Position numbers and translations under genes: made by a program. DNA of 47,709 nt from positions 3,965-51,673 of the forward strand of contig WELB01000174.1 in NCBI GenBank assembly GCA_009602725.1, written 5' to 3'. Numbering within the stretch: the first letter of the stretch is position 1; each line of letters begins with the position of its first letter. The notes beneath the pieces were generated by a model. It saw only the letters and a list, made by a program, of their open reading frames with translations, ran no database searches and was not told where the DNA came from. This DNA comes from Spirogloea muscicola (lineage: Eukaryota; Streptophyta; Zygnematophyceae; Spirogloeales; Spirogloeaceae). Shown here piece after piece: positions 362 through 14,284 of this stretch.

Positions 362-3074
362 ATGGGGCCCTTGTTTCCGTGCCAACGCAACGTCCTGCTG
401 CCCACGGCTCTGACGCTCGTCGTGCTCCGGCTGGGCCCAGTCGCGCTCGCCGTCCTTCTGGCCTGTGCGGGCGCCTCAGCAGGTGGGACTTGAATATATT
501 GTCACTCGTTATCCGTTTTGCCTTCTTTCTTGTGCAACGATGTCTTGAGTTGCCATGCTGCAGAGGGCGCCACCCCATTACTCCATCTATTTTGTGCCTC
601 TGTAATGGCTCTGGCCACCATCTCTGCAACACCGCCCTGCAGCAGGAGCTGATGGCCTGCTGTTGCCGTCGGCCTTCGTCCGCCCCGCAGCTTGCAGTGA
701 GAACCAAACGCTCATCGAGGTGAGAAGTGTCAACGACATAAGTAAGCAACAGCGGCTTCCTGGCATCCAGACTGTCGTGCTGGAGCTCCAAAGCGACGTC
801 AACATCACCGAGACGCTCATCCTCGGGGTCAAGTACTCGTGCACAATTGTACGCTCGGCTGCAGGCGCGCGGTACGCGCTTACATCGGACAACGACACCA
901 TGCCCGCATTGACCATCATGGGTGCGGCCGACGTCCTTTGGCAGAACGTCGACATCAGACTCCCGATCGTCAATGGCAGCTCGCCCATGTGCACCTACAA
1001 GGCGTACCAATACCTCGACGACACCTACTGCCCTGCAGTCGTCGTCTTGAATTCGTCGCGCATCCAGGTCGCCAACGCGTCAATCGGCGGCGGCGTGCAC
1101 ATCTTCCAGGGCAACTCCGTCCTACTTGACTCCTGCACAGTGAAAAGCTTCGACTTTGCAGTGATCCTTGGAAACACGGGTGGCGGGTATTGGACGAATG
1201 CCAGCAACGGCCACGTGATCAGCAACAATGTCCTCCGTGGCTACGTCACGGGCGTCAACATTGCATACGGCAGCGTCGGCGTACAGGTCATCAACAACTA
1301 TATCACGGACTTCATCTTCTCTGGGCTCTCGCTTGGCCGTGGCGCCCACAATGTCGCGGATGGTGAGCAACCGCTGCGCGTGTGCTCCCAGTGCTGAAGC
1401 TGCTGTGTTGGTCGTAGGCTGGCTACTTGATTATAGTAGTATTTGCTGTCTCTCAGGTTGAGATGATATGGTGATTAGTCTCGTATCTCAACACGAGCCT
1501 TTGGGCGCCTTGCATGCCTGCTCAAGCAAACGCTTTCCAGTAATAGCAGCGTGCTTAATAGCCAGTGCGGGTGTCCACGCTGTTAGGTCTGTGCCGGTGT
1601 CCTGCACGTCTGAGTAAAATAGCCTTGAATGTTCTGAGAGGAGGCTTCATATGACCTGCAGCTCGCTTGTTCTTCATTGCCAGCCATGAACAGTGACATC
1701 AACAACAACTACATCACAGTCACCAATTCGACCGACATACTCCCTGACGGCGCTGGCATCTATGCTGTGACCCACTGGATCAATCCAAGTATGTTGTGCT
1801 TGATACTTTATGCCAAACCTGAACGTGCCAGTACTAATGCCCAGGTTTCTTCGTCTCATCAACTCGTCTCTAAATAAGTCGTGGCTTTCTGTGGCCCTGC
1901 ATCTGCTTTTAGCTATAGGGATAATTGATTGATGTGGAACGTCTCTTATTGCGTGCAGACAATACATTGCGATGCAACTATGTCGTGGGGCCTGCTCCAC
2001 ACTGCCTCTATCTTGACTTTGCGAGCTCCGACTACCTTGTGAACGGCATGGTCTGCATAGGGAGCGGTAATGGACTCAAGGCCAACACAGGCCACCATAA
2101 TTTCATCTACGGCATGGTCATTGCGGAACCCTATTCGCAGCCCGGCTTCATTGCTCCGCAGCTCCTCTGGAATTGCGCCTCTGACCCCGGCACATTCTGG
2201 GACGAGCAGCGGAAGTTGTACTTCAGCTCCACTGACTTTCAGGCAGTAAGATTCAATTCTTCTTTGTACAGAGAATCTACCAAAGCTGACAGGACCTGTG
2301 TCGCCACCTTGTCATGCTCTTTCCAGCTCAGAATGTGCAGTATACTGGCAACCTTGTCAGCCGGAATAAGACGGCCAACATGTCCAGATATTTGTGCCTC
2401 ACCTCGTGATGCCTCATATGTCCTGAAGTAATGTGTCAACAATGTTCAGGCAAACCTTTGGCTCCACGACTTCTGCAGCAAAACATCATTCAATGGCACC
2501 AACTGCAACACTGGCACAAATCTTACAGCTGCGCAGACGGGCAACTGTAGCGGCATGCCCACTGGAAATATATGGCAGGTGAGCTGCAAGTTTGACAATA
2601 ACCACAACTTGTCTTACCTCCAGTAGCACACTAGAGATGACTTACCCTTCTTGACCTTCCGCAAAGTCTCCTCCCGTGTAGCTGTTACGAGATGTATAGA
2701 CAATGACTTAGCGTTTAAGTGCTTTTGAATGCTTTTGCACTGATGCTCCTCCATGAGTTGTATGCAATCTGCAGAGTGTTGTGCTAGCCGCTACATCAAC
2801 GAGCCGGCCCCAAATGTATGGCATGGACATTTTACCCACGCTTCCATTGATCAACACTATACAGTACCTTGACTTCAACGAGTCTGATGCCGCGACAGCC
2901 AACTCTGCAAATGGCTTGCAATTTGCGGATGTCGCCAACAACGACTATGGCCTTGCTTCTACATCGCCCATATATGACACCTTTTCTAATTTCCCAAGCT
3001 GCCCGCGTGCAAAGGCTGGCCCTCAGGCTGTTTTAGCTTCTTCCTACATGTCCAGATATAATGGGGAGTCGTGA
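362..3074 (+). CDS. secreted right-handed beta-helix-like protein 1, six exons
   Basis: My exon model is 362-482, 691-1362, 1684-1788, 1959-2245, 2450-2578 and 2775-3074 (537 residues, TGA stop). All introns are GT-AG and all phases join. Exon 1 is almost entirely a signal peptide: Met, a short polar stretch, then a Leu/Val/Ala-rich core ending near ACAGASA. The mature part begins at a conserved Cys. It is rich in Asn and short beta-rungs (SNNVLRGY, INNYITDF), as in right-handed parallel beta-helix proteins. About a dozen Cys are shared with the two paralogues at 21369 and 27771, which suggests an oxidised, extracellular protein. The proline-rich exon of the paralogues is absent: exon 1 splices directly, in phase 1, to the domain. 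No catalytic motif is recognised, so a carbohydrate-active or structural cell-wall role is inference only. Mobile DNA follows downstream. Confidence 0.8.
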
Positions 3075-3088
3075 GCTCCTCCACATCC

Positions 3089-3254
3089 TGTAAATACTTG
3101 TCACCTAAGAACCTTAAACATCAGCCTAGCTTACTGATGTAGTCCCCTGTGCAGACATACGACACCGTTGTACAAAGCCACGCTCCTTGTAGTGCAAGGC
3201 TATACCTTGATCAGAAGACTCGCTCACGTTGTGGAGCGTGGTATAAGCAATAAA
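3089..3254 (+). terminator. possible polyadenylation signals of beta-helix gene 1
   Basis: TGTAA, the usual chlorophyte polyadenylation signal, occurs at 3089-3093, only 15 bases after the stop. A canonical AATAAA occurs at 3249-3254. The first seems very close to the stop, so I cannot say which is used. Confidence 0.3.
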
Positions 3255-4370
3255 ATGTACTCGTTGAATTATCAACGGCCAATTATACATCGACCTTGAC
3301 TCGATACTGTTGCCCCTAGTAAGAGTGACTTGCTCCTACAGTACAAGCAATGGAATGCAATGCACTGCACAGTCAGCATTCATCTCGGCAGCTGTAATCG
3401 TGTTGAACAGAAACTATCTGTTGACATATAGAGATAAGTGTCACAAGGGAGTGGAGAAGACAGCATTCTTCGGACTCCTTGCGTTGAGGAATGACACCAG
3501 GAATAACTCGATGATAGAGTACAATCTGATGAAGTGTGTGATAGCTCAGGTTGTCAACAGAGATTTTAAGAGACAGCATCTTTCGAACCTCGAACACCTG
3601 ATCAGTCATTCTAAAGAATGGGAAGCGAAAACGATTCGATATAACGAAGTGTGTCAAACTCTAGAAGCACGTAGACAAATCGCCAAACACTAATTGACCA
3701 CACCGTAAGCCTGGTTTGACAACACTGTTCCTGTTACCGTGCATCGTATGTTTATTAACGAGAGACACACGTCTTCTATCAGAGAAAAACGCTCAAGACG
3801 TTGCACTGGCTGGCCACTCACACCTACTGTCCTGTAGGAGCGCTTTCTCTCCTACTTGTCCATCATCTCAGTCCCTTCCGGATCAGATATTGGGTGGTTG
3901 CGGATGGGTCACCTCTAATTTTACGCGGTTGGCCAGGCAGGAGGCGTGCGTGGTCACAAACGTGCAGGCAAGCGCGCTCCAAGCGGGCAGTGGCTGTGAT
4001 CGGGCAACTCCAACACTAAGTGCTGGGGCAGGGCGGTGACAGCGGAGGAAGCTACGCAGCTGAAGAAGCAGTGGCTCTCACTTGAATTGCACAGCTCCCA
4101 TAGACACGGGGGTCGGCCAGTGCAGTATGCCGGCACGGCTGTCCGCAGCCAACTGAATCTGCATGGAGTGACGGCCAACATAGAACTGAATAAGAGGCCT
4201 GCCAGGACAATGCACAAGTTCACGAGTGCACATGAATGAAGTTTCGAATCGCCATGTGATCTCGGCCATGTAGTTAGTATGGGGAACGCTCCGGGTTATC
4301 TTCCCCCCCCCGCCAAGCCCTTCCTTCCGGAGGAAAGTATTTGATTAAGGGCGGCGGGCGCAATCCGAAA
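3255..4370. other. intergenic, no recognised gene
   Basis: This is AT-richer unique-looking sequence. An open frame of 127 codons at 3310-3693 has no recognisable motif and no plausible splice partner, so I do not call it a gene. The rest shows no repeat or gene signal that I can identify. Confidence 0.5.
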
Positions 4371-4503
4371 GGAGAAAGGGCTCGCCCATTGAGGATTGGG
4401 GCTGGACAAGCCAGCCCAAAAAAAGAGAATGAACGAAGGACGAGAAGGGGGCCAAGGGAAGCGCTAAGAAAAACAAGCACAAAATGGAACTAAGCAGCTA
4501 CGA
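4371..4503 (-). repeat. non-LTR retrotransposon 3' tail, antisense
   Basis: Read on the minus strand this is a retrotransposon 3' untranslated tail: the GGGCTGGC/GCCAGCCC-type stem-loop near 4400-4420, preceded by the 'gcgcttcccttggcccc' and 'cattctctttttt' blocks and followed by the GGGCGAGCCC...CTTTC end block. It abuts the plus-strand coding remnant that starts near 4510. Confidence 0.75.
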
Positions 4504-4509
4504 ATCACT

Positions 4510-5682
4510 CAGTTTCGCTCGCGCGCGTCTGCAGGCCAGCATTCCTCGGCAGTTGGGCACAGGTCGCCACGTCGGTGGCGCAGCGCTTCCTCCATGATGG
4601 GCGGCCCCTGCTGCAGCAGGTTGTGGAGGAGGTGGCGACTGGCTCGTTGCCTTTCCAGGAGGCCCTCCGCTCAGCCCAGGACGGGTTACTCGCGGAGCAT
4701 CCTGCCCTTGCAGAGAGCGTGGTCCCCTTCGCCCACCTCGCCCACACCTCCGACTCGCAGGCGCAGGCGCGATACATGGCTGCTGTGGACAAGGCGGCGT
4801 TCACGGACACGCTGCAGCTCCTCCCCGCAAGCGACGTGCGCGGCCGTGCTCGGCTGCTGTCGGCCGCCTCCCCCGGCGCGGCAGCCTGGCTCTCCGCGCT
4901 CCCACTGTATGATGCGCTCAGGCTGCCGGACGAGCTGTTCCGCACGGCCACGCATCGCCTGCTGGGCTTCCCCCGCCCTGCTGCTGGGCGTGCTGCAGTA
5001 CGAATGTGGGGAGCGGTCGACGGACCCGGCGGAGCTGGCGGCGCATCTCCTCCGCTGCGCCACTGGAGGCGAACGAACAGCTGCGCACGACCTCTTGCGT
5101 GATGCTATGTTCGGAATCTTTCAGGAGGCGGGCTCCACGGTGGCGATGGAGAACGCCTCGGTCATGCCCATCCTCGAGAGGGCTGACGGACACCATACGC
5201 GTCGTGTCGACCTGGTGGCGTCCACGCCGGGAGGTGGCGCGCGGATCATAGCCGATGTAGTCACCACCGATGTGGTCGACCGCTCCAACCTGGGGCTCTC
5301 TGCCTCGCGGGCAGGCCACGCTGCCTCGAAGGCCGCTCGCTGCAAGGCGGCCAAGCACTCCGACCACCCACCTGCCGACGAGTTCGTCACCTTCGCGGTG
5401 GACGTGCACGGGGCTCTTGGGTCCCAGTGGCTTGACCTGTTGGCTACGCTTGCGCGGCGGGCTGTGTCCCGCAGACGCGGCGAGCCAGCCGACTTCAACG
5501 CCGCTGGCTCGTGGGCTCAGGTATACCGGATGCGCCTCTCTGTATCCCTGCAGCGGTCCATGGCCCACGCTCTGCATCTGCGAGCTGGCCGTGCTCTCGC
5601 TGCGGGCTCTGGCTTTCGTCAGGGTGATAGCTTCCCGGCAGCTAGTTTGTCGGATCTGAGGCTCCTCACCCGTAATTACTGA
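4510..5682 (+). pseudogene. 5'-truncated non-LTR retrotransposon ORF with RLE-like nuclease domain
   Basis: This is the C-terminal part of a retrotransposon polyprotein; no reverse transcriptase core is present. It reads in one frame from about 4510 to the C-run near 4968, then continues one frame over from about 4975 to the TGA at 5680-5682, so one frameshift is needed. Visible parts in order are a helical region of about 150 residues, a Cys/His cluster (ECGE...AAHLLRC...AAHD), and then RVDLV followed 14 residues later by ADVVTTD. This fits the (K/R)-x-D-X12-14-D signature of restriction-like endonucleases in R2/CRE-type elements. A Lys-rich AARCKAAKH segment and a basic QVYRMRLSVSLQR helix follow. 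It ends in SDLRLLTRNY-stop, an ending that recurs across the window. Assignment to an RLE clade is inference from the motif. Confidence 0.75.
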
Positions 5683-5829
5683 GTGATCCATCCTCCCCCT
5701 GTTTTACCATAGCATCCTCAGGCCCCTTTGTAGCTGCTCACCGCTCTTAGGCCCCTCTGAACCTTTGTGAAATCTTTTTGGGCTGGCTTTTCGCAGCCCT
5801 TGCCCCCATTGGGAGTGCCACTTCTTCTA
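5683..5829 (+). repeat. 3' untranslated tail of the 4510-5682 retrotransposon remnant
   Basis: This tail directly follows the stop codon: a CCATCCTCCCCC block, GGCCCCTTTGTAGCTGCT, an AACCTTTGTGAAATC block, the stem-loop GGGCTGGCTTTTCGCAGCCC at about 5779-5798, then CCCCCATTGGGAGTGCC and ACTTCTTC. A minus-strand tail begins at the next base, so two tails meet end to end. Confidence 0.8.
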
Positions 5830-6085
5830 GTAACCCTTGCTAAGCAGCCGCAGGTCCGAAAGGCCCGCCCCCATTCGAAGAAAGGGCTCGCCCATTGAGG
5901 ATAGGGGCTGGACAAGCCAGCCCAAAAAAGAATGAACAAAGAACGAGAAGGGGGCCAGAGGAAGCCAGAGGAAGCGCTAAGAAACCAAAGCCCACAAAGA
6001 AAGAAAGCAGCTACAAATTACTCAGTAACCCCTGCTAAGCAGCCGCAAATCAGAGAGGCTAGGGTCCTGGAAGTGGGTCCCCTGG
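5830..6085 (-). repeat. nested antisense retrotransposon 3' tails
   Basis: Two minus-strand copies of the coding end (LRLLSR-type, near 5830-5860 and 6023-6060) flank a tail with a GGGGCTGGACAAGCCAGCCC stem-loop at about 5905-5925. They belong to the subfamily whose coding end is SDLRLLSRGY-stop. They are remnants and have no coding capacity. Confidence 0.75.
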
Positions 6086-6340
6086 ACAGAGCCCCCATTC
6101 CCCCTTCCCGCCCGCTTCCCGCCCCCCCCGGGGGGCTCCGTTCTCATTGGCGGGGACGCCTACGGCGGCCCAGGAGAAAAAGCGCGGCCAGATTGACTGG
6201 TGGCTGGGAGAAGGAAAGTGCGCGCGCCCATTAGGAAAAGGGGGCCTGGAACGTTCCCACTTACTGTGAGCGTTAACCCAGGTCGTTACGTTCATCTAAT
6301 TGGCCGACCTGGCCTGGCCAGGTGGTCCCGCACGGGGGCC
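6086..6340. other. GC-rich intergenic sequence
   Basis: C-runs and G-runs (about 6095-6135) are followed by a short antisense fragment of the widespread retrotransposon tail. No gene is seen. Confidence 0.5.
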
Positions 6341-6344
6341 TCGG

Positions 6345-6600
6345 TGGCGCGCTGTCCACCCTGGCGCCCCGCGCACGGGGCCACGGTGGCGCGGTGTCCA
6401 CCGTGGCGCCCGGTGCACGGGACCACGGTGGCACGGTTCCACCCTGGCGCACGGGGCCGCGGTGGCACGGTGTCCACCCTGGCGCCCGGCGCACGGGGCC
6501 GCGGTGGCACGGTGTCCACCCTGGCGCCCGCCTGGCGCCCGGCGCACGAGGGCCGCGGTGGCGCGGTGTTCACCCCGGCGCCTCGACACGTTGGGCCCGA
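6345..6600. repeat. 42-base GC-rich minisatellite
   Basis: There are about six head-to-tail copies of a unit of about 42 bases, each running from GCRCGGTGTCCACC through TGGCGCCC and GCACGGGGCC to RCGGTG. One copy is shortened to about 34 bases and one has a 12-base internal duplication. It produces long open frames in several frames, which are artefacts of the period being a multiple of three and of the lack of A/T stops. Confidence 0.9.
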
Positions 6601-6907
6601 CAGCGGGGCCCTTCCCCTCGGCAGGCCTGTCCCTCGGGGCGGGCCCGCATGCGGCCCGCCCCGCGGGGTGGGCCATGGAGCGACCCCATGCGCCCCTGAG
6701 GGGGGGCGCGGCACTGGGAGCACTAGGAGTCTGGGGGCTGAGAGCTGAGCACCAGTTCGGATCAGTGAAGCCCCGAGAGCGGCGCAGCCCTGCTGCTGCG
6801 CCTGCTGCTGCAGCTCGCCGCCGCAGGACGCTGCCGGCTCGCTTGCAACGCGTCCGTGGCCGACCCTTGGTGGGCTAGCTGCGGACTGGTGCCCGAGAGG
6901 TAGAGAC

Positions 6908-7010
6908 GCCGCCTGACGGCGGCACCACAGGGCAAGACTTCCGCTGCGCGCTGAGGCGCGAGGTGCTTCACGGTGTAGGGGTTTGCTCCAAAACCCCTAC
7001 GTCCGAATCC
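6908..7010. other. three consecutive perfect hairpins, possible structured RNA or SINE-like remnant
   Basis: Three perfect inverted repeats follow one another: GCCGCC/GGCGGC (6908-6923, 4-base loop), CGCGC/GCGCG (6947-6960, 4-base loop) and a 10-base-pair stem GTAGGGGTTT/AAACCCCTAC (6975-7000, 6-base loop). GTCCGAATCC then follows, one mismatch from the RNA polymerase III B-box consensus. The 10-pair stem is too long for a tRNA anticodon arm, so I do not call a tRNA. Confidence 0.5.
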
Positions 7011-7085
7011 AGTAAGCACTTGACCGCCTAATTGCCTCTCTGTAGGGGTCGAGTCATTACAGGGCCAGCAAAGAAAGTGCGCAGC

Positions 7086-7545
7086 CATAGAGAAAGGGGG
7101 CCAGCAAAGCCAGCCCGGAAAGGATGGACAATGTCCAAAGCCAAAGAAAGGCAAAACACACAGCTAGGCATCTAGACAATTAGACATGACGAATCCACAG
7201 GCTGGGAGAGGCCAGCCCAAATGGAATGGACCAGGAACTGTTGTCCTCAAGCGAGGAATCGCTAAGGGGAAAGCCTTAGCTGACTGGAGGGTAGCTAGCC
7301 AGCTCCAGGCGGCGGAAGCCGCGAGTAGTTTCCCGTCCCCTCCCTTCCCTTTTGTCCATTCCTTTGGGCTGGCCTCTCCCAGCCACCAGTCAATCTGGCC
7401 GCGCTTGCATTCCAGAATGAAGAAGAAGTGGCACTCCAAGTGGGGGCAAGGGCTGTGATAAGCCAGCCCAAATTTTTTTGACAAGGGTTTGGAGGGGCCG
7501 ACCAGCGGTTAGCAGCTACAGAGGGGCCTAACAGGTGAGGGGCTG
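7086..7545 (-). repeat. left copy of a direct repeat of about 440 bases flanking the Ty3 element
   Basis: It matches 13441-13886 in the same orientation, with only scattered substitutions and a constant offset of about 6340 bases. Inside are several minus-strand retrotransposon-tail modules with stem-loops (near 7095, 7203, 7367 and 7450). It is not a proper LTR pair: the right copy starts about 175 bases after the polypurine tract, and those 175 bases are not repeated on the left. Confidence 0.85.
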
Positions 7546-8691
7546 TCGTGCCGTATCCTGTCGACTGCCTATTTGTGTCGATCTGACTAGGACCGCTGAC
7601 TGGGCTTCACACGTGGCCTTACTAGGCTGACTCATTCACTTCGGTGGGCGATTCACGCTGAGGATGAAGGACCACTTTTCTCCCTATGTGGCTCCTAGGC
7701 TGGGTCATACAGTTTTGTGTGTGATTCACGCTGACAATGGAGGTTCCACCCACCTCTGACTCTCTCTCTCTGCGACACCGACTTTCTCTTTCGGCGACAA
7801 CAATGACATCGACCGCTCTTCCGATGGGGACAACACCAACAACAACATCAACCGATCATCAAATGCGGACAACCACAACAACGGCGTGACTACAAGGGCC
7901 CAAGCCCACGCGCGACGCCAACCAGCCGAAGACCGTTCAAGGCGCAACGAGGAATGCCCGTCTACAGGTACCTCAACCACCAACAAGACCGTCAAGGTGG
8001 GCGCTATCGAAGCGGTGGCGGGGCGACCGTGCAGCAGATCATTGGATATGTTCATCTACGGTCAAGAAGACGACTCCAGGGTCGGGAGCGGTCCACGAAG
8101 GCCGGCAATCCAGCTTAGCCAACCAGCGTAGCCAACGGCCCGCATCTGGCCTATCAGGTAGCGCTAGAGTTTCACCGCGTCGGGCCCATGTCGGGGCGCG
8201 CGCTCTAGGCCAGGCAGTCCGCTTGGCAATACTCACCCTCCTGCCGCGCCTGCGCCCACCGCGCCTGCGCCGATCAAGCCTGCGTCTACTCGCGCCTGCG
8301 TCCGCGAGAGAGCAGAGCCCGGCATGTACGGCGTGCGCGCCTAGCGAGCCTTGCGTGCGGACCCGCTACGACAGCGAGAAGTCGTTCTATCGGTGTGGTA
8401 AGCAGTCTTTACATTGTGCTGATCTTGCCTGTCTTCACATCTGGAGAGTTGCGCTCATCGTTTGAGTGCCTGTTTCGAATTGATTGCTTGCGTGCATCCA
8501 TTGGCTGCATTTCTTGTTATAATCACAATTACAGAAAAGGTGCGGGCTTGCCCGAGAACAATTGCTCGAGTAGATAGGGACCATCCTTCAGGGTGGTCAC
8601 CCAAGACGGGTAGATAGGGATACCCTGGGACTCTAGATACTGGATACTGGTTACCGGGCACTGTCACGCCACTTTCTATTGCCAAGCGGAG
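7546..8691. other. unresolved region upstream of the Ty3 element
   Basis: This is where gag, protease and a 5' LTR would be expected. Short open frames (7886-8131, 8223-8465) are rich in Arg, Thr and Asn and show no CCHC knuckle, no protease D(T/S)G and no primer-binding site that I recognise. It may be a decayed gag or unrelated sequence. Confidence 0.4.
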
Positions 8692-8809
8692 AAGAAGGCC
8701 CGCCAAACCGGTTGCTACTCCACCAAATAACTCCAACACCACGAGCTCCTTCTCCCCGAATTTAAACGGAGTAACTCCTGAGTAGAAGCGTGGATCCTCA
8801 AGGCTCTGA
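8692..8809 (-). repeat. inverted-repeat arm carrying methyltransferase motif I
   Basis: The reverse complement of this segment matches 8981-9099 at roughly nine bases in ten, beginning in TCAGAGCC and running through the codons for VLELFGG to GGGCCTTCTT. Read on the minus strand it still encodes a VVLELFGGVAT segment. The two arms are separated by about 170 bases and could form a long hairpin. Confidence 0.9.
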
Positions 8810-8820
8810 CCATACAGGGT

Positions 8821-10000
8821 ATGAGCAATCGTGACTTGGGTGAATTGGAGGTGGAAGAGAGGTACAGACGGTACCTCGCAATGCTCCCAGATTGGACTAG
8901 AACTGCGGCCATCAGGGTGGCCGATGCTTGGGGGCAGCCAGCTTTCGAAGTGGCAGAGTTGGTAGACCCTGGCACAAACCTCAGAGCCAATGAGGATCCA
9001 CGCTTCTACACAGGAGTTACTCCGTTTGAATTCGGGGAGAAGGGGCTCGTGGTGTTGGAGTTATTTGGTGGAGCAGCAACCGATTTGGCGGGCCTTCTTA
9101 GGAGCCGTTATAAGGTTGCTCGTTACATATATGTAGATAATGATAAGGATGCAAGGGAAGCGGCGGCACATCATATTGCCATATTGCAGGAGCGCTACCA
9201 TCATTTTGTGACTCCTACGACTTTCAAGGGCTGGGACACTCTTCTACCAGACGACATTACAGAAGCTAGCAAACCCAAGTACCTGAAGAGACTACCTCAG
9301 GTCGACCTCGTCATAGCAGGGTTTCCCTGTGAGGGTTTCAGTGGTGCAGGGAAGGGTCATGGCTTCGACAATCCTAGTACCAATCTCTTTTTCTCTATGC
9401 TAGAAATGATGCGGAGTATTCGGAGTCGGTAAACGGCACCCATGGGTTACATTATAAGAAATGTAGAGCCGCCAAAAGCGTCGGCCTCTACGAAGGATTT
9501 TCGTCGATTGTTTCACATCCTAGGTCCCTGTGCTAAACTAGATGCAGCTAGGGTCAGCTCTTTGGCTGACAGAGTGAGGCTGTTCTGGACTAATTTAGCT
9601 CCAGTGCCTCCACTCCAAGCTTGCATAGATGGGCAACGTCCTCACAAGGATGCTAAGGCAGCCCTCATCTTAGATGCTGGACGACGTCTACCACCAGTGC
9701 CTGGATATGTGCAGAATCATCCAGTCAACAACGCCTACCAGGAGCGACGTACCCTTCCAACTTTCGTGGCGACGCCTCGTTCTCATGCATTCTGCATCAA
9801 AGAAAATGGTGAGATTGGCCAGGGAATGGTGATTACAGGGCCTCCTACAGCTGAACAACTTCTTGCTCAGTTTGATGTTCCCACTCCTAGGGAATGGGAG
9901 AAAGCCATGGGATTTTGGCCAGGTGACATCACGCCGGCACACTTTTAAGATGACCAGAAGAATGCTTTGATAGGGCAGGCGTTTGATTTGAATAGCATCA
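8821..10000 (+). pseudogene. DNA cytosine-5 methyltransferase domain at the N-terminus of the retrotransposon polyprotein
   Basis: Motif I (VVLELFGGAATDLAGLL, from 9049) binds S-adenosylmethionine. It is followed by YIYVDNDKDAR (motif II/III) and the catalytic motif IV GFPCEGFSGAGKG, with its Cys codon at 9328-9330. After the TAA at 9430 the same frame gives GYIIRNVEPP at the position of motif VI, where the family has ENV; here Glu is replaced by Arg (AGA 9457-9459). ARVSSLADRVRLFWTNL and the C-terminal PTPREWEKAMGFWPGDI, then IGQAFDLNSITWL, resemble the C-terminal motifs of Dnmt3/DRM-type enzymes. Such an enzyme methylates cytosine in DNA. Because the frame runs on into reverse transcriptase, it was part of the element's polyprotein and not a neighbouring host gene. 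This copy is inactive. Confidence 0.9.
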
Positions 10001-10254
10001 CTTGGCTGACTAGTGTCTTGGGACGTATTCAGACTGAATACGCGGTGCTTCAGGACGCCTATGAGAAAAGTCTCCAGCCAGGTGCAGAAGGACTGACAAA
10101 CATGGACAATAAACTGTTAGCCATGTTTGAACTTGCAGGCATTGTAGAGGAAGAGGACACAATGTAGCAACCAAAGTTTGTTGCCCTTGCTGATAATAAT
10201 GGCATTGTTGAGTACAAGTGCCAGCTGGGTCCTCAGTTATGTGATGAGCAATAA

Positions 10255-11660
10255 CGTGAATTGACAAGCATGCTGCAGGAGAACATCATTTGCTTTGCAT
10301 TCTCAGCAGCTGATTCAGGCACTTATACAGGTGCCAAATTCCAAATTACTCTCAGCAGTGATAAGCCCATCTTTCGGAAGAGGTATACATTGTCTCCCTT
10401 TGAGGATGAGCTTGTGGAAAAGAGATGTCAAGAATTGCTTGCTCTTGGCATGATAGAACCTTCTAATAGTTCATTTGCAGCACCTACTGTTCTCCCGGCA
10501 AAGAAGGACGAACATGGGAATTATACTGACCGTCGAATGTGCGGTGATTATCGTTTGCTGAATGCTAATACTCCACTGGAGAGGTATCCAATGCCTACAC
10601 CCGACGAAATCTTCAACCGTGTCGGTTCTGCAAAGGTTTTCTCTGTTTTGGATTTGAAATATGGGTTTCAATCAGATTGAAATTGAGCCTAGTGATCGAT
10701 ATAAGACTGCATTCTGGGGTGTCGATACGCTTTATCGAAGGACTAAGATGCCGTTTGGACTGAAAAATGCACCATCTATATTTCAGCGTGTCATGGACCA
10801 GGTGTTGAAGGGAGTTCCATACGCCAGATGTTACATAGACAATGTCTTGATTTTTTGTCATGAATTCACTGAGCATGTGACACATATTGACTCTGTTCTC
10901 AAGTTGATACAGAGTTCAGGTTTGAAGTGCCATCCGGGGAAATGCCGGTTTGCACTCGCTGAGGCTCATTATCTTGGGCATCAGATAACGGCAAATGGTC
11001 TTTTACCACAAGACAGCAAGGTGCAAGCGATACTGTTAATCCCTGCACCTACCAATCTTACATCTTTGAGATCGTTTCTAGGACTTGCCAGTTTCTATCG
11101 TAGATATATTGAGCATTTTAGCTCTTTGGCTCGTCCTCTCAACAGCCTTCTCAAGAAAAGTACACAATGGCTGTGGGGATCTGAACAGGAAAACGCTTTT
11201 TGCCAATTAAAGCAATCACTGACAACAGCTCCTGTTTTACGTCGTCCTGATTATGCCAAAGAATTCCAGCTGCACACAGACTGGAGTAAACTCGGCATGG
11301 GAGCTGTACTCACACAGCAAGACGAAGATTCCCATGATTACGTCATTGCATACGCTAGTCATTTTAATAATGCTGCTCAACAGAATTATTCTGCATACGA
11401 AGGCGAATGTCTTGCAGCTGTTTGGGCTGTCACGCATTTTAGACCGTACTTATTTGGACGACGGTTTAAGCTTATAACCGATCATCAACCTTTGAAGTGG
11501 CTACTAACCACTAATCATCTGACTGGCAAACTAGCCAGGTGGTCGCTGCGTTTAACGGAGTATGAGTTTGAGATTGTCCATAAGCCAGGGTTACAGAATT
11601 TGGATGCAGATGCACTCAGCCGCAATCCTATATCAGTATCTGTGGAAGAGCAATTTGCTT
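10255..11660 (+). pseudogene. Ty3/gypsy reverse transcriptase and RNase H domains
   Basis: The RT opens with RKRYTLSPFEDELVEK and the GMIEPSNSSFAAPTVL finger motif. It continues with MCGDYRLLNANT, FSVLDLKYGF, MPFGLKNAPSIFQ and the active-site box CYIDNVLIF. The second catalytic Asp of Y-x-D-D is Asn here (AAT 10841-10843), so polymerisation would be lost. A single extra base near 10669 shifts the frame within the third motif. The connection and RNase H follow (SFLGLASFYRRYI, LHTDWSKLGMGAVL, AYEGECLAAVWAV, ITDHQPLKWLL, LDADALSR), with the acidic residues of a Ty3-type RNase H in place. No aspartic protease lies between the methyltransferase and the RT. Confidence 0.95.
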
Positions 11661-11859: not shown

Positions 11860-13030
11860 AGACAGGATCAAGCACCGAGCTAAGCGATATGTTTGGCAGA
11901 ACAATCAACTCATTCGTCCTCATCAGGAATACAGGAACCAGGTTGTCCCTCCTCCTGCTGATTGTTTGCAGATAGTCCAAGATGTCCACACAAACTATGG
12001 ACACTTTGGTGTGAAGCGTACCATCAGTCTTCTTATGCCAAGATATTGGTGGTATGGTGTGACAAACACTGTCAAACATGTTTTGTCACAATGTGAGGAG
12101 TGCGATCGTATTCGTAGTACCTTCTCACTAAAATCTCCAGTGTTGCATCCTTTTCCAAATGAGGGGCTCTTTTATAGATGGAGTCTTGATTTGGCAGGGC
12201 CACTGCAACCGGGTAGACGTGCCAGACCTTATGTGCTCATTATGATTGAGCATTTTTCGAAATAGGTAGAAGTTGTTATTATTCCTGCCAAGACTAGTGA
12301 GCTTATTGCTTATGCTTTCCGCGATGCTGTACTCACTCGGTATGGTGCTCCGGCAGAAGTGCTTACCGACCGCGGTACAGAATTCAAAGGCGCATTCCAG
12401 CAATTGTTAGACCGCAGCTTCATTGATCACCGACTTACATCTAGGGATCATCCACAGGCTGATGGTTTGGCAGAGCGGATGGTGCAGACATCAAGAAAGG
12501 ATTAATGAAGTATGCAATGCAACATGGTTTGGAACGTTGGGACTACTTTCTACCATGGCTAATTATGGGATATCGAATGTCAAACCAGGCTTCTTTGTCC
12601 TGTTATAGTCCTTATTTTCTTCTGTTTGGTCAGCATCCAGCTATCCCTGCTAACATTAGCCTGGTCACTAACGTGGTAGACCTGGACGATCCACTGATTT
12701 GGCAGAAGGTTTGCACGGCTCGGGGCCAACTGTTTCAGAAGCACATGCCCATGGCCATGAACAACTTACGCATTGCACAACATCGTGACACAAACCGGTA
12801 CGCCACAATCCGTAGCGGTACTTACAGACCCAAATCTAAGGACACTAATGTGGGTGATTTTGTGTATCTTAAGGTCAAGCCACAGGATGCATTGGACTCT
12901 TCAACCGGACCTCTCATACTTCAGGTTGTTGAGAAACTTTTATCAGGCTTGCTTCGCCTTCGCGGTTCATGTAACCGTGATATCAGTGATCATATTCAGA
13001 ATGTTGCTCGTTGTCACCTCAGCAATATAG
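11860..13030 (+). pseudogene. Ty3/gypsy integrase
   Basis: An HHCC zinc-binding module is visible (H-x3-GH...CEEC, about 11980-12110). The catalytic core follows, with WSLDLAGPL (first Asp), LTDRGTEF (second Asp, near 12368) and HPQADGLAERM (Glu, near 12473), i.e. an intact D,D,E set. A TAG at 12263-12265 and a one-base deletion near 12487 interrupt the frame. The C-terminal part has a GPLILQVV segment like the GPY/F module of chromovirus integrases. The protein would insert the element's cDNA into the genome. Confidence 0.93.
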
Positions 13031-13077: not shown

Positions 13078-13212
13078 TGTGAAGTTTGTGAGTGTACAGA
13101 TCAGGCAGGTGTAATGCTCTTGTGCTCTCACTGCAATCGAGGTTGGCATACTCCTTGCCTTGTACCTCCACTTGAATCAATACCAGAGCATGATTGGTTT
13201 TGTACAACTTGC
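13078..13212 (+). pseudogene. PHD finger at the integrase C-terminus
   Basis: This is a textbook C4HC3 zinc finger: CEVC, then LLCSHC, GWHTPC, the PPLESIPE linker and WFCTTC. It lies where many Ty3/gypsy elements carry a chromodomain, immediately before the polypurine tract and in the integrase frame. PHD fingers commonly read histone H3 tails, so a targeting role for the integration complex is a reasonable inference. The aromatic and acidic residues needed for methyl-lysine binding cannot be judged from the sequence alone. Confidence 0.92.
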
Positions 13213-13255: not shown

Positions 13256-13266
13256 TGGGGGGGGGG
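13256..13266 (+). other. candidate polypurine tract
   Basis: An almost pure G-run ending in GGATA follows 44 bases after the PHD finger codons. Its position fits plus-strand priming at the 3' end of an LTR retrotransposon. The sequence downstream (13268-13440) should then be the start of a 3' LTR, but I find no match to it upstream of 8.8 kb. Confidence 0.55.
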
Positions 13267-13440
13267 ATACTACATAGTCAAATTTCACACGTTCTTGAGT
13301 TGTTTATCTGTTGTGATCTTTGGCAACTGACAACAACTGTTGACCTTTATCAGACAGTTCTTCCTGTCAGCTGGCCAAGGTTTGTTATCGTCTAGACCTA
13401 TCGACGTCATTTCGCACCAACGCCTAACGGCATGACTGCG

Positions 13441-13886
13441 CCAGCAAAGCCAGCCCAGAAAGAATGGACAATGTCCAAAGCCAAAGAAAGGCAAAACACA
13501 CAGCTAGGCATCTAGACAATTAGACACGACAAATCCACAGGCTGGGAGAGGCCAGCCCAAAAAGGAATGGACCAGGAACCGTTGTCCTCAAGCGAGGAAT
13601 CGCTAAGGGGAAAGCCTTAGCTGACTGGAGGGTAGCTTGCCAGCTCCAGGCGGCGGAAGCCTCGAGTAGTTTCCCGTCCCCTCCCTTCCCTTCTGTCCAT
13701 TCCTTTGGGCTGGACTCTCCCAGCCACCAGTCAATCTGGCCGCGCTTGCATTCCAGAATGAAGAAGAAGTGGCACTCCAAATGGAGGCAAGGGCTGTGAT
13801 AAGCCAGCCCAAAATTTTTTGACAAGGGTTCGGAGGGGCCGACCAGCGGTTAGCAGCTACAGAGGGGCCTAATAGGTGAGGGGCGG
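13441..13886 (-). repeat. right copy of the direct repeat of about 440 bases
   Basis: This is the partner of 7086-7545, with the same modules in the same order and near-identical length. It contains minus-strand tail stem-loops near 13443, 13545, 13705 and 13790. See the left copy for why it is not simply an LTR. Confidence 0.85.
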
Positions 13887-14284
13887 TGAGTGGTTTCGCG
13901 AAGGCGGAGCACCACCTGCGTCACCTGCTTGGTGGGCGGCGGCTAACCGCATTCATCCCACAAGCAGCTCTGTCAGACACTTGGGGCGTTCGCCCTCCCT
14001 GGCTCCCCGACATCTATATAACCAGGGCACCAGCCCAATCCCCTGCTTGCGGAGTCATTTTCAGCGTACTGTGGCCCAAGCCCTGCCTGTCTGCCCGCTC
14101 AACGCTCCATCTCCCCTCGCCTCGTAGTAGAAAGAAAGTGATCGCCAATAGAGAAGAGGGGCTGGCAAAGCCAGCCCAAAAAGAATTGACAATGTCCAAA
14201 GCCAAAGAAGAGGAGCCGGAAAAGGACTACACTACAAAACTCAAGACGATGCAGAGGGAAGCTCAGTACCCGCGGTCTCAGTGA
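13887..14284. other. intergenic with one retrotransposon tail fragment
   Basis: No gene is recognised. A minus-strand tail with a perfect GGGCTGGC-AAA-GCCAGCCC stem-loop lies at about 14158-14200. Confidence 0.5.

Follow-up and report, generated by a model that had tools for sequence, protein, structure and literature searches.

The stretch of DNA analysed here (47,709 nucleotides of contig WELB01000174.1, in the following the window) harbours a retrotransposon that, judged by its domains and its relatives, is a decayed copy of a Ty3/Gypsy family with its own cytosine-5 DNA methyltransferase (MTase), truncated within the coding region on the 5' side so that gag and protease are lost. Selection and sequence strongly suggest that the stop codon between the MTase and the reverse transcriptase (RT) of this family is leaky, i.e. 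a readthrough signal of the type used by tobacco mosaic virus (TMV; type I). The best explanation, which we regard as likely, is a Ty3/Gypsy family with a gag-protease-Dnmt3 MTase frame, a leaky UAG/UGA-CAR-YYA signal and, further downstream without a change of frame, coding sequence for RT, RNase H, integrase and PHD finger. In this family the MTase would be made at a Gag-like level and may be packaged, and the PHD finger may steer insertion. According to an earlier note on this DNA, the MTase shares its reading frame with a Ty3/Gypsy RT, and this holds, as the MTase domain (PF00145) occupies positions 8893-10158, RT begins at 10168, and the two starts are offset by 425 codons.

The junction between MTase and RT was read in 29 sequences, namely the window, L009-L013, L015-L017, L021, L028, L038, L039, L041-L055, and L057; the set omits masked, rearranged and truncated loci, L040, in which the sequence upstream of RT is not homologous, and L056, which diverges from the family just ahead of the junction. 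A stop is present at 27 of the 29 junctions (21 TAG, six TGA, no TAA), and 23 show an exact STOP-CAR-YYA signal, with L013, L050, L053, and L054 being one base off. Three junctions (L021, L044, and L051) came to light in a search that used the signal as query and were identified afterwards from the flanking sequence; if they are set aside, the exact signal is found at 20 of 26 junctions and the stop at 24 of 26. In the exact cases the codon following CAA is TTA, TCA or CCA, i.e. Leu, Ser or Pro, and as YYA is constant although the encoded residue changes, it is the nucleotide pattern rather than the protein that is conserved. RT lies directly 3' of the stop and in the same frame in L011, L013, L016, L028, and others. 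CAR-YYA after UAG is described as essential for TMV readthrough, and the natural TMV signal is reported to give 32% readthrough in one plant reporter, with lower values for UGA or UAA (PMC2754532).

As a control we used homologous alignments of 42 sequences (the window piece, L009-L028, and L037-L057), in which none of 100 other in-frame stops (29 TAG, 36 TGA, 35 TAA) is followed by CAR-YYA. TAA thus accounts for 35 of the 100 control stops, compared to none of the 27 junction stops. On both strands and in every frame of the 42 sequences, junctions included, STOP-CAR-YYA occurs at 30 of 4295 TAG, 20 of 7829 TGA and 3 of 3472 TAA triplets. At L010 (C134) the junction codon is TAC (Tyr), so that MTase and RT form a continuous frame there; in plants, a leaky UAG is described as being decoded as Tyr (PMC2754532).

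Substitution patterns, expressed as the ratio of non-synonymous to synonymous rates (dN/dS), show that purifying selection acts on both sides of the stop. For RT, the ratio is 0.24 (0.12-0.45) for L011-L012 and 0.18 (0.10-0.32) for L028-L016, both copies keeping the stop in either pair; RT past the stop is thus under purifying selection in stop-bearing copies, from which we conclude that the stop does not prevent its translation. For the MTase, dN/dS is 0.05-0.15 over six comparisons, e.g. 0.15 (0.10-0.20) for L009-L010. Moreover, the RT tree, rooted with four MTase-free Gypsy RTs, and the MTase tree, rooted by choice with clade C, give the same three clades, with 12 copies being common to both trees and the others being present in one tree only. 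Clade A comprises L009-L012 and the window, clade B L013, L016, L017, L022, and L028, and the GC-rich clade C L021 and L039. MTases of different clades are 36-49% identical, with motifs I, IV, VI, VIII, and X still recognisable, and their synonymous sites are mostly saturated; this divergence implies that the association of MTase and element is old. As the leaky-stop layout is found in all three clades, it probably predates their divergence.

The window copy is organised as follows (positions and strand in the window):

7544..8690, + strand: terminal repeat A (starting TGTCGTGCC) and presumed untranslated leader, the 5' end of the element by alignment to the 5' ends of other copies
8692..8800, - strand: inverted duplicate of the MTase segment around motif I (8991-9099), 109-nt arms, 95% complementary
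8893..10158, + strand: Dnmt3-type cytosine-5 MTase domain (PF00145, E 2.2e-10; motifs aligned)
9430..9432, + strand: TAA within the MTase, attributed to decay, absent from the open frames of L011, L009, L015, and L013
9946..9948, + strand: second TAA within the MTase, likewise attributed to decay and absent from the same open frames
10165..10173, + strand: junction signal TAG CAA CCA (STOP-CAR-YYA) at the MTase/RT boundary, kept across copies
10168..10987, + strand: RT (RVT_1, E 2.7e-19), frameshift near 10665
10252..10254, + strand: TAA close to the RT start, attributed to decay, absent from L011 and L013
11249..11563, + strand: RNase H (PF17917, E 1.6e-36)
11951..12499, + strand: integrase, H2C2 zinc-binding part and core (PF17921, E 1.3e-12), TAG at 12263, frameshift near 12490
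13078..13212, + strand: PHD finger, the C-terminal domain of the pol frame (PF00628, E 8.7e-8)
13257..13266, + strand: poly-G tract, likely the polypurine tract; L011, L013, and L028 have a comparable run of G ahead of repeat B
13267..13436, + strand: terminal repeat B, 88% identical to L015 3201-3032

The earlier note had described MTase and RT as parted only by in-frame stops. This applies to the TAA codons at 9430, 9946 and 10252, which are due to decay, but not to the TAG at 10165, which belongs to the conserved leaky signal (stop kept in 27 of 29 copies). The window MTase is 60% identical to that of L011 in a single tblastn alignment (L011 residues 1-420, E 4e-163), and the window RT, aligned by tblastn in two pieces, is 83-86% identical to the L011 RT. 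The region 7544..8690 matches the 5' ends of L011 (395-615, 97%), L012 (1491-1739, 94%), L015 (9066-7909, 85%), and L019 (5602-6745, 94%). The inverted MTase piece at 8692-8800 sits where gag and protease are missing; L015 holds about 2.9 kb between the positions that match window 8690 and 8797. L019 (C66:28500-38400), where several fragments of this family's MTase occur, truncated and in part inverted, has the left breakpoint of the gag-protease deletion in common with the window (8690), and the C66/L019 pieces may be a non-autonomous derivative. L020 (C91:236000-245900) contains clustered direct and inverted duplicates of a clade B MTase, including two equal-scoring frames of 265 amino acids. 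At gathering threshold, Rfam has no match anywhere in the window.

The genome search covered 153 Mb in 471 contigs. With the L011 MTase as query it gave at least 102 matches at at least 71 loci, both numbers being lower bounds as 99 of 285 candidates were scored, and with this many genomic matches the MTase-RT arrangement is not due to chance. Scanned with Pfam, 16 long frames taken from nine other copies and eight window pieces yield the family order zinc knuckle (gag), aspartic protease, MTase, RT, RNase H, integrase, PHD finger, the stop lying between MTase and RT. Among the frames scanned, all parts occur together only in L011, whereas the other copies each show a subset. In L011, frames 1520-5752 and 5756-8866 (1411 and 1037 codons) are in register with exactly one stop between them. 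Its Pol contains RVT_1 (120-273), RNase H (336-465), H2C2 (594-649), and rve (669-762), an order that the window shares, interrupted by frameshifts; the rve match passes the Pfam cut-off in L011 but is under it in the window (E 3e-4). The zf-CCHC and gag-asp_proteas domains were both matched in L010, L011, L013, L014, and L015, the protease always under the Pfam cut-off, and PHD fingers were matched in L011 (E 1e-9), L014 (E 1.3e-10), and the window. The earlier note had remarked that no protease lies between MTase and RT; the absence of a protease is true only of the truncated window copy, and fuller copies have one upstream of the MTase. By the order RT, RNase H, DDE integrase the backbone is assigned to Ty3/Gypsy. 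A tyrosine recombinase, as in DIRS elements, is not seen in the 16 long frames, for which Pfam lists integrase-core matches and no phage integrase.

Family RT matches, i.e. those at least 50% identical to the L011 RT and including the RT 5' end, number 26. According to the search tables, 20 are preceded by an MTase at a distance of up to 1.5 kb and in the same orientation, with the frame shared in 13 cases, and direct tblastn adds C290 and C123, resulting in 22 of 26. In the other four no MTase is found in readable sequence: the C142 locus is masked and that of C24 rearranged, C36 has retained the junction signal plus a linker with no recognisable MTase, and C101 shows none. The counter-evidence named in the earlier note, RT copies without the MTase, is thereby limited to four matches in which none is readable, against 22 that have it upstream. 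Its statement that the MTase belongs to the element and is not a captured neighbour is borne out by these numbers and by the shared clades of the RT and MTase trees.

More distant Gypsy families (RT 36-40% identical) are abundant in the genome, and three such elements (L063, L064, and L065) have no MTase and encode protease and RT in a single uninterrupted frame. As MTase-free Gypsy elements exist, the MTase is not needed for transposition in general. The idea that readthrough is older than the capture of the MTase was also considered; these three elements show no stop ahead of RT. One distant family, G000, has open frames of 1172-1237 codons with nearly equal scores in C70, C80, C225, C294, C33, C170, C235, C412, and C267 and has perhaps been active recently.

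In alignments the MTase motifs follow the order I-IV-VI-VIII-X, and as this order is not permuted, the enzyme resembles Dnmt3 rather than DRM. When a profile built from 11 sequences (nine from other copies and two window pieces) was compared to PDB chains, it matched DNMT3A best (E 1.4e-14), the best bacterial enzyme having an E value of 1.7e-9 and DRM2 one of 7.5e-6. We therefore reject the DRM class and retain only the first half of the Dnmt3/DRM-like assignment made in the earlier note. The best of five AlphaFold2 models of the MTase has a predicted local distance difference test score (pLDDT) of 80.8 and a predicted template modelling score (pTM) of 0.86, and a fold search with this model gave 164 PDB matches at E <=0.001, of which the best 50 are all DNMT3 entries. 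From motifs, profile and fold, the MTase is classified as Dnmt3 type. An ultimately viral origin was also considered and is conceivable: matches among viral predicted folds include C5-methylases of phages and giant viruses, some with low E values, with mostly poor superposition. A pattern search of the viral contigs gave 45 matches, none of them coding for a relative.

Several observations weigh against the interpretation of the family as a carrier of a leaky stop and a maintained Dnmt3-type enzyme. The stop is lost at two of the 29 junctions (L010 and L043), both of which still have CAA-YYA. Three of the five AlphaFold2 models have a pLDDT below 57, and the top match among viral predicted structures is a phage C5-methylase with an E value of 3.6e-15, below that of the best PDB match, at a root-mean-square deviation of 16. 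In the GC-rich clade C copy L018 motif IV is AGWEC instead of AGFPC, and given this change at the catalytic motif its activity may differ. Furthermore, 33 of 36 MTase pairs are too diverged for dN/dS, and the between-clade pair L013-L018 (dS 1.78) has an MTase dN/dS of 0.40. The relative from Klebsormidium nitens is reported to have shown no methylation in yeast (PMC5890265), a result that is inconclusive because human DNMT3B failed too. Finally, CpG observed/expected is 0.51-0.68 in eight copies of clades A and B, compared to 0.78-0.97 in four other Gypsy stretches and 0.77-0.90 around seven light-harvesting genes; this depletion fits methylation of the clade A and B copies and does not indicate the agent of methylation. 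Clade C, however, is not depleted (0.82-0.86, three copies), so that self-methylation is not supported uniformly.

The arrangement might also be explained differently. Taken by itself, the window copy, which lacks gag and protease, appears to begin with the MTase, as if a host Dnmt3 gene had been interrupted by, or adjoined, a Gypsy insertion. However, this is rejected by the fuller copies, in which protease and in several cases also gag lie beyond the MTase in one open frame, and by the 22 of 26 RT matches with an MTase upstream on the same strand; together with the matching clades of the two trees, these data leave the host-gene explanation highly improbable. A further possibility is that the MTase is a functionless passenger, retained only through its place in the Gag-Pol frame. 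The abundance of distant Gypsy families, with no MTase in the three examined, and the relaxed ratio of L013-L018 are in line with such a passenger, but the low dN/dS over the six comparisons and the motifs recognisable across clades are not, and we consider it quite unlikely.

The junction stop, in turn, might be an ordinary terminator, with RT being expressed via a separate transcript, internal initiation or splicing. Stops between gag and pol can indeed be bypassed in non-canonical ways, as the junction of Tca2 is reported to have given no readthrough in yeast (PMC2194720), and two of 29 junctions have no stop any more. Nevertheless, RT follows in the same frame right after the stop, the leaky hexanucleotide of plant viruses is kept in three diverged clades though the amino acids change, and TAA is absent from the junction but common among decay stops, all of which makes an ordinary terminator unlikely. 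We thus prefer readthrough of a leaky stop.

The ends of the element carry the repeats A and B. L013 reads A (267-620), coding region, B (8527-8760), A (8763-9573, interrupted), B (9565-9798), i.e. split direct repeats; its outermost bases are TG...CA, and read by eye there is a possible 4-bp duplication, ACGT, next to them. L012 shows A, coding region, B, A as far as the sequence stretch extends, and A precedes and B follows the coding region in L014, L017, L028, and the window; the flanks of C2, C30, C38, and C157, as read, contain no second copy of A or B. An unrelated tandem repeat of about 250 bp flanks the L011 element (C2 copy; L058 and L059) left and right, beyond the element's own termini. 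In the window, a 448-bp repeat (7100-7546 and 13440-13887, 96% identical) directly flanks the element on both sides; it has no match of at least 150 nt in the other fetched copies, and its length by far exceeds that of ordinary target-site duplications. These repeats were rejected as long terminal repeats (LTRs) of the element, as the 5' end of the element in other copies begins at about 7544.

The host looks like a streptophyte. The genome encodes a light-harvesting complex II protein (LHCII) that matches chlorophyll a/b proteins, the top match being an unusual 620-residue chain (9vfj), and an Lhca4 that scores about 250-270 bits against full-length Lhca4/P4-type chains vs at most 185 bits against other Lhca types. 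The light-harvesting set, which we take to be of green type, and Lhca4, which we take to be of land-plant type, both from the organisms of the PDB entries, point to this assignment. Searches of the assembly with two dynein heavy chain domains gave no match, which is weak evidence because the control genomes, none of which matched in one search, were prokaryotic; seen against established knowledge, this absence would fit a plant or alga that lacks flagella, e.g. a zygnematophyte, and the host is probably not Klebsormidium. The rbcL gene was not found in the assembly either.

A DNMT3-Gypsy element is already known from a streptophyte, whereas the earlier note knew of none from the lineage that the window suggested to it. 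KnitGypsy-Dnmt3 from K. nitens is described as having a DNMT3 in the Gypsy Pol open reading frame, DIRS-like repeats and Ka/Ks <0.2 (de Mendoza et al. 2018, PMC5890265). According to that description, both families have a Dnmt3-type, intronless, unrearranged MTase under purifying selection in a Gypsy element of what is, or here looks like, a streptophyte; KnitGypsy-Dnmt3 is an LTR element, and its repeat order A, coding region, B, A, B is seen in full here in L013. Compared by description only, they differ in that the DNMT of KnitGypsy-Dnmt3 is placed within the Pol open reading frame, whereas here a stop precedes RT in 27 of 29 copies. The main text of PMC5890265 mentions neither readthrough nor PHD nor protease and uses "stop codon" once, in another context. 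SymbioDIRS-Dnmt3 and SymbioLINE-Dnmt from Symbiodinium, described in the same report, are likewise retrotransposons that recruited a C5 methyltransferase, but on tyrosine-recombinase DIRS or LINE backbones in contrast to the Gypsy-type DDE integrase found here. Retroelements are known to make use of readthrough at the gag/pol boundary (PMC2194720), and in murine leukaemia virus (MuLV) and TMV, as presumably here, a single in-frame stop and its defined 3' context are described to set the ratio of upstream to downstream product (PMC2194720, PMC2754532). Unlike in these viruses, the stop here lies behind an acquired MTase, which would join the abundant upstream product. Among the papers listed, our literature searches surfaced no DNMT-bearing retrotransposon beyond PMC5890265 and no algal case of a PHD finger in a Gypsy integrase; a PHD domain is reported in the Ginger1-9 DNA transposon of Hydra. 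Thus, the putative readthrough switch, the PHD finger and the three diverged clades in both the RT and the MTase tree appear to be new.

If the stop behind the MTase is leaky, the MTase would be made with Gag rather than with Pol. Most ribosomes would terminate after the MTase, yielding gag, protease and MTase in excess, and a minority would read through the stop and supply RT and integrase. The MTase may then be packaged together with Gag, and we speculate that the particle-borne enzyme could methylate the new cDNA or the insertion site, and that the PHD finger on the integrase could steer insertion by reading histone H3 tails. Taken one step further, these ideas would describe a "writer-reader" retrotransposon, in which the leaky stop makes the MTase a Gag-level component of the particle that marks cDNA or landing site, while the PHD finger of the integrase picks chromatin by its histone state; this we put forward tentatively, as a doubtful but possible extension.

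DNA methylation is the way in which plants silence transposons, and a transposon that keeps its own methylase therefore poses a paradox, which was raised in print in 2018. The conserved leaky stop would give this enzyme a place in the life cycle of the element, i.e. with Gag and in quantity and not as a rare Pol enzyme. An MTase at Gag level would narrow the possible roles to protection of the cDNA, a function in the nucleocapsid, or marking of the insertion site. The three clades common to both trees show that the association of the MTase with these elements is not only old, but has been maintained.

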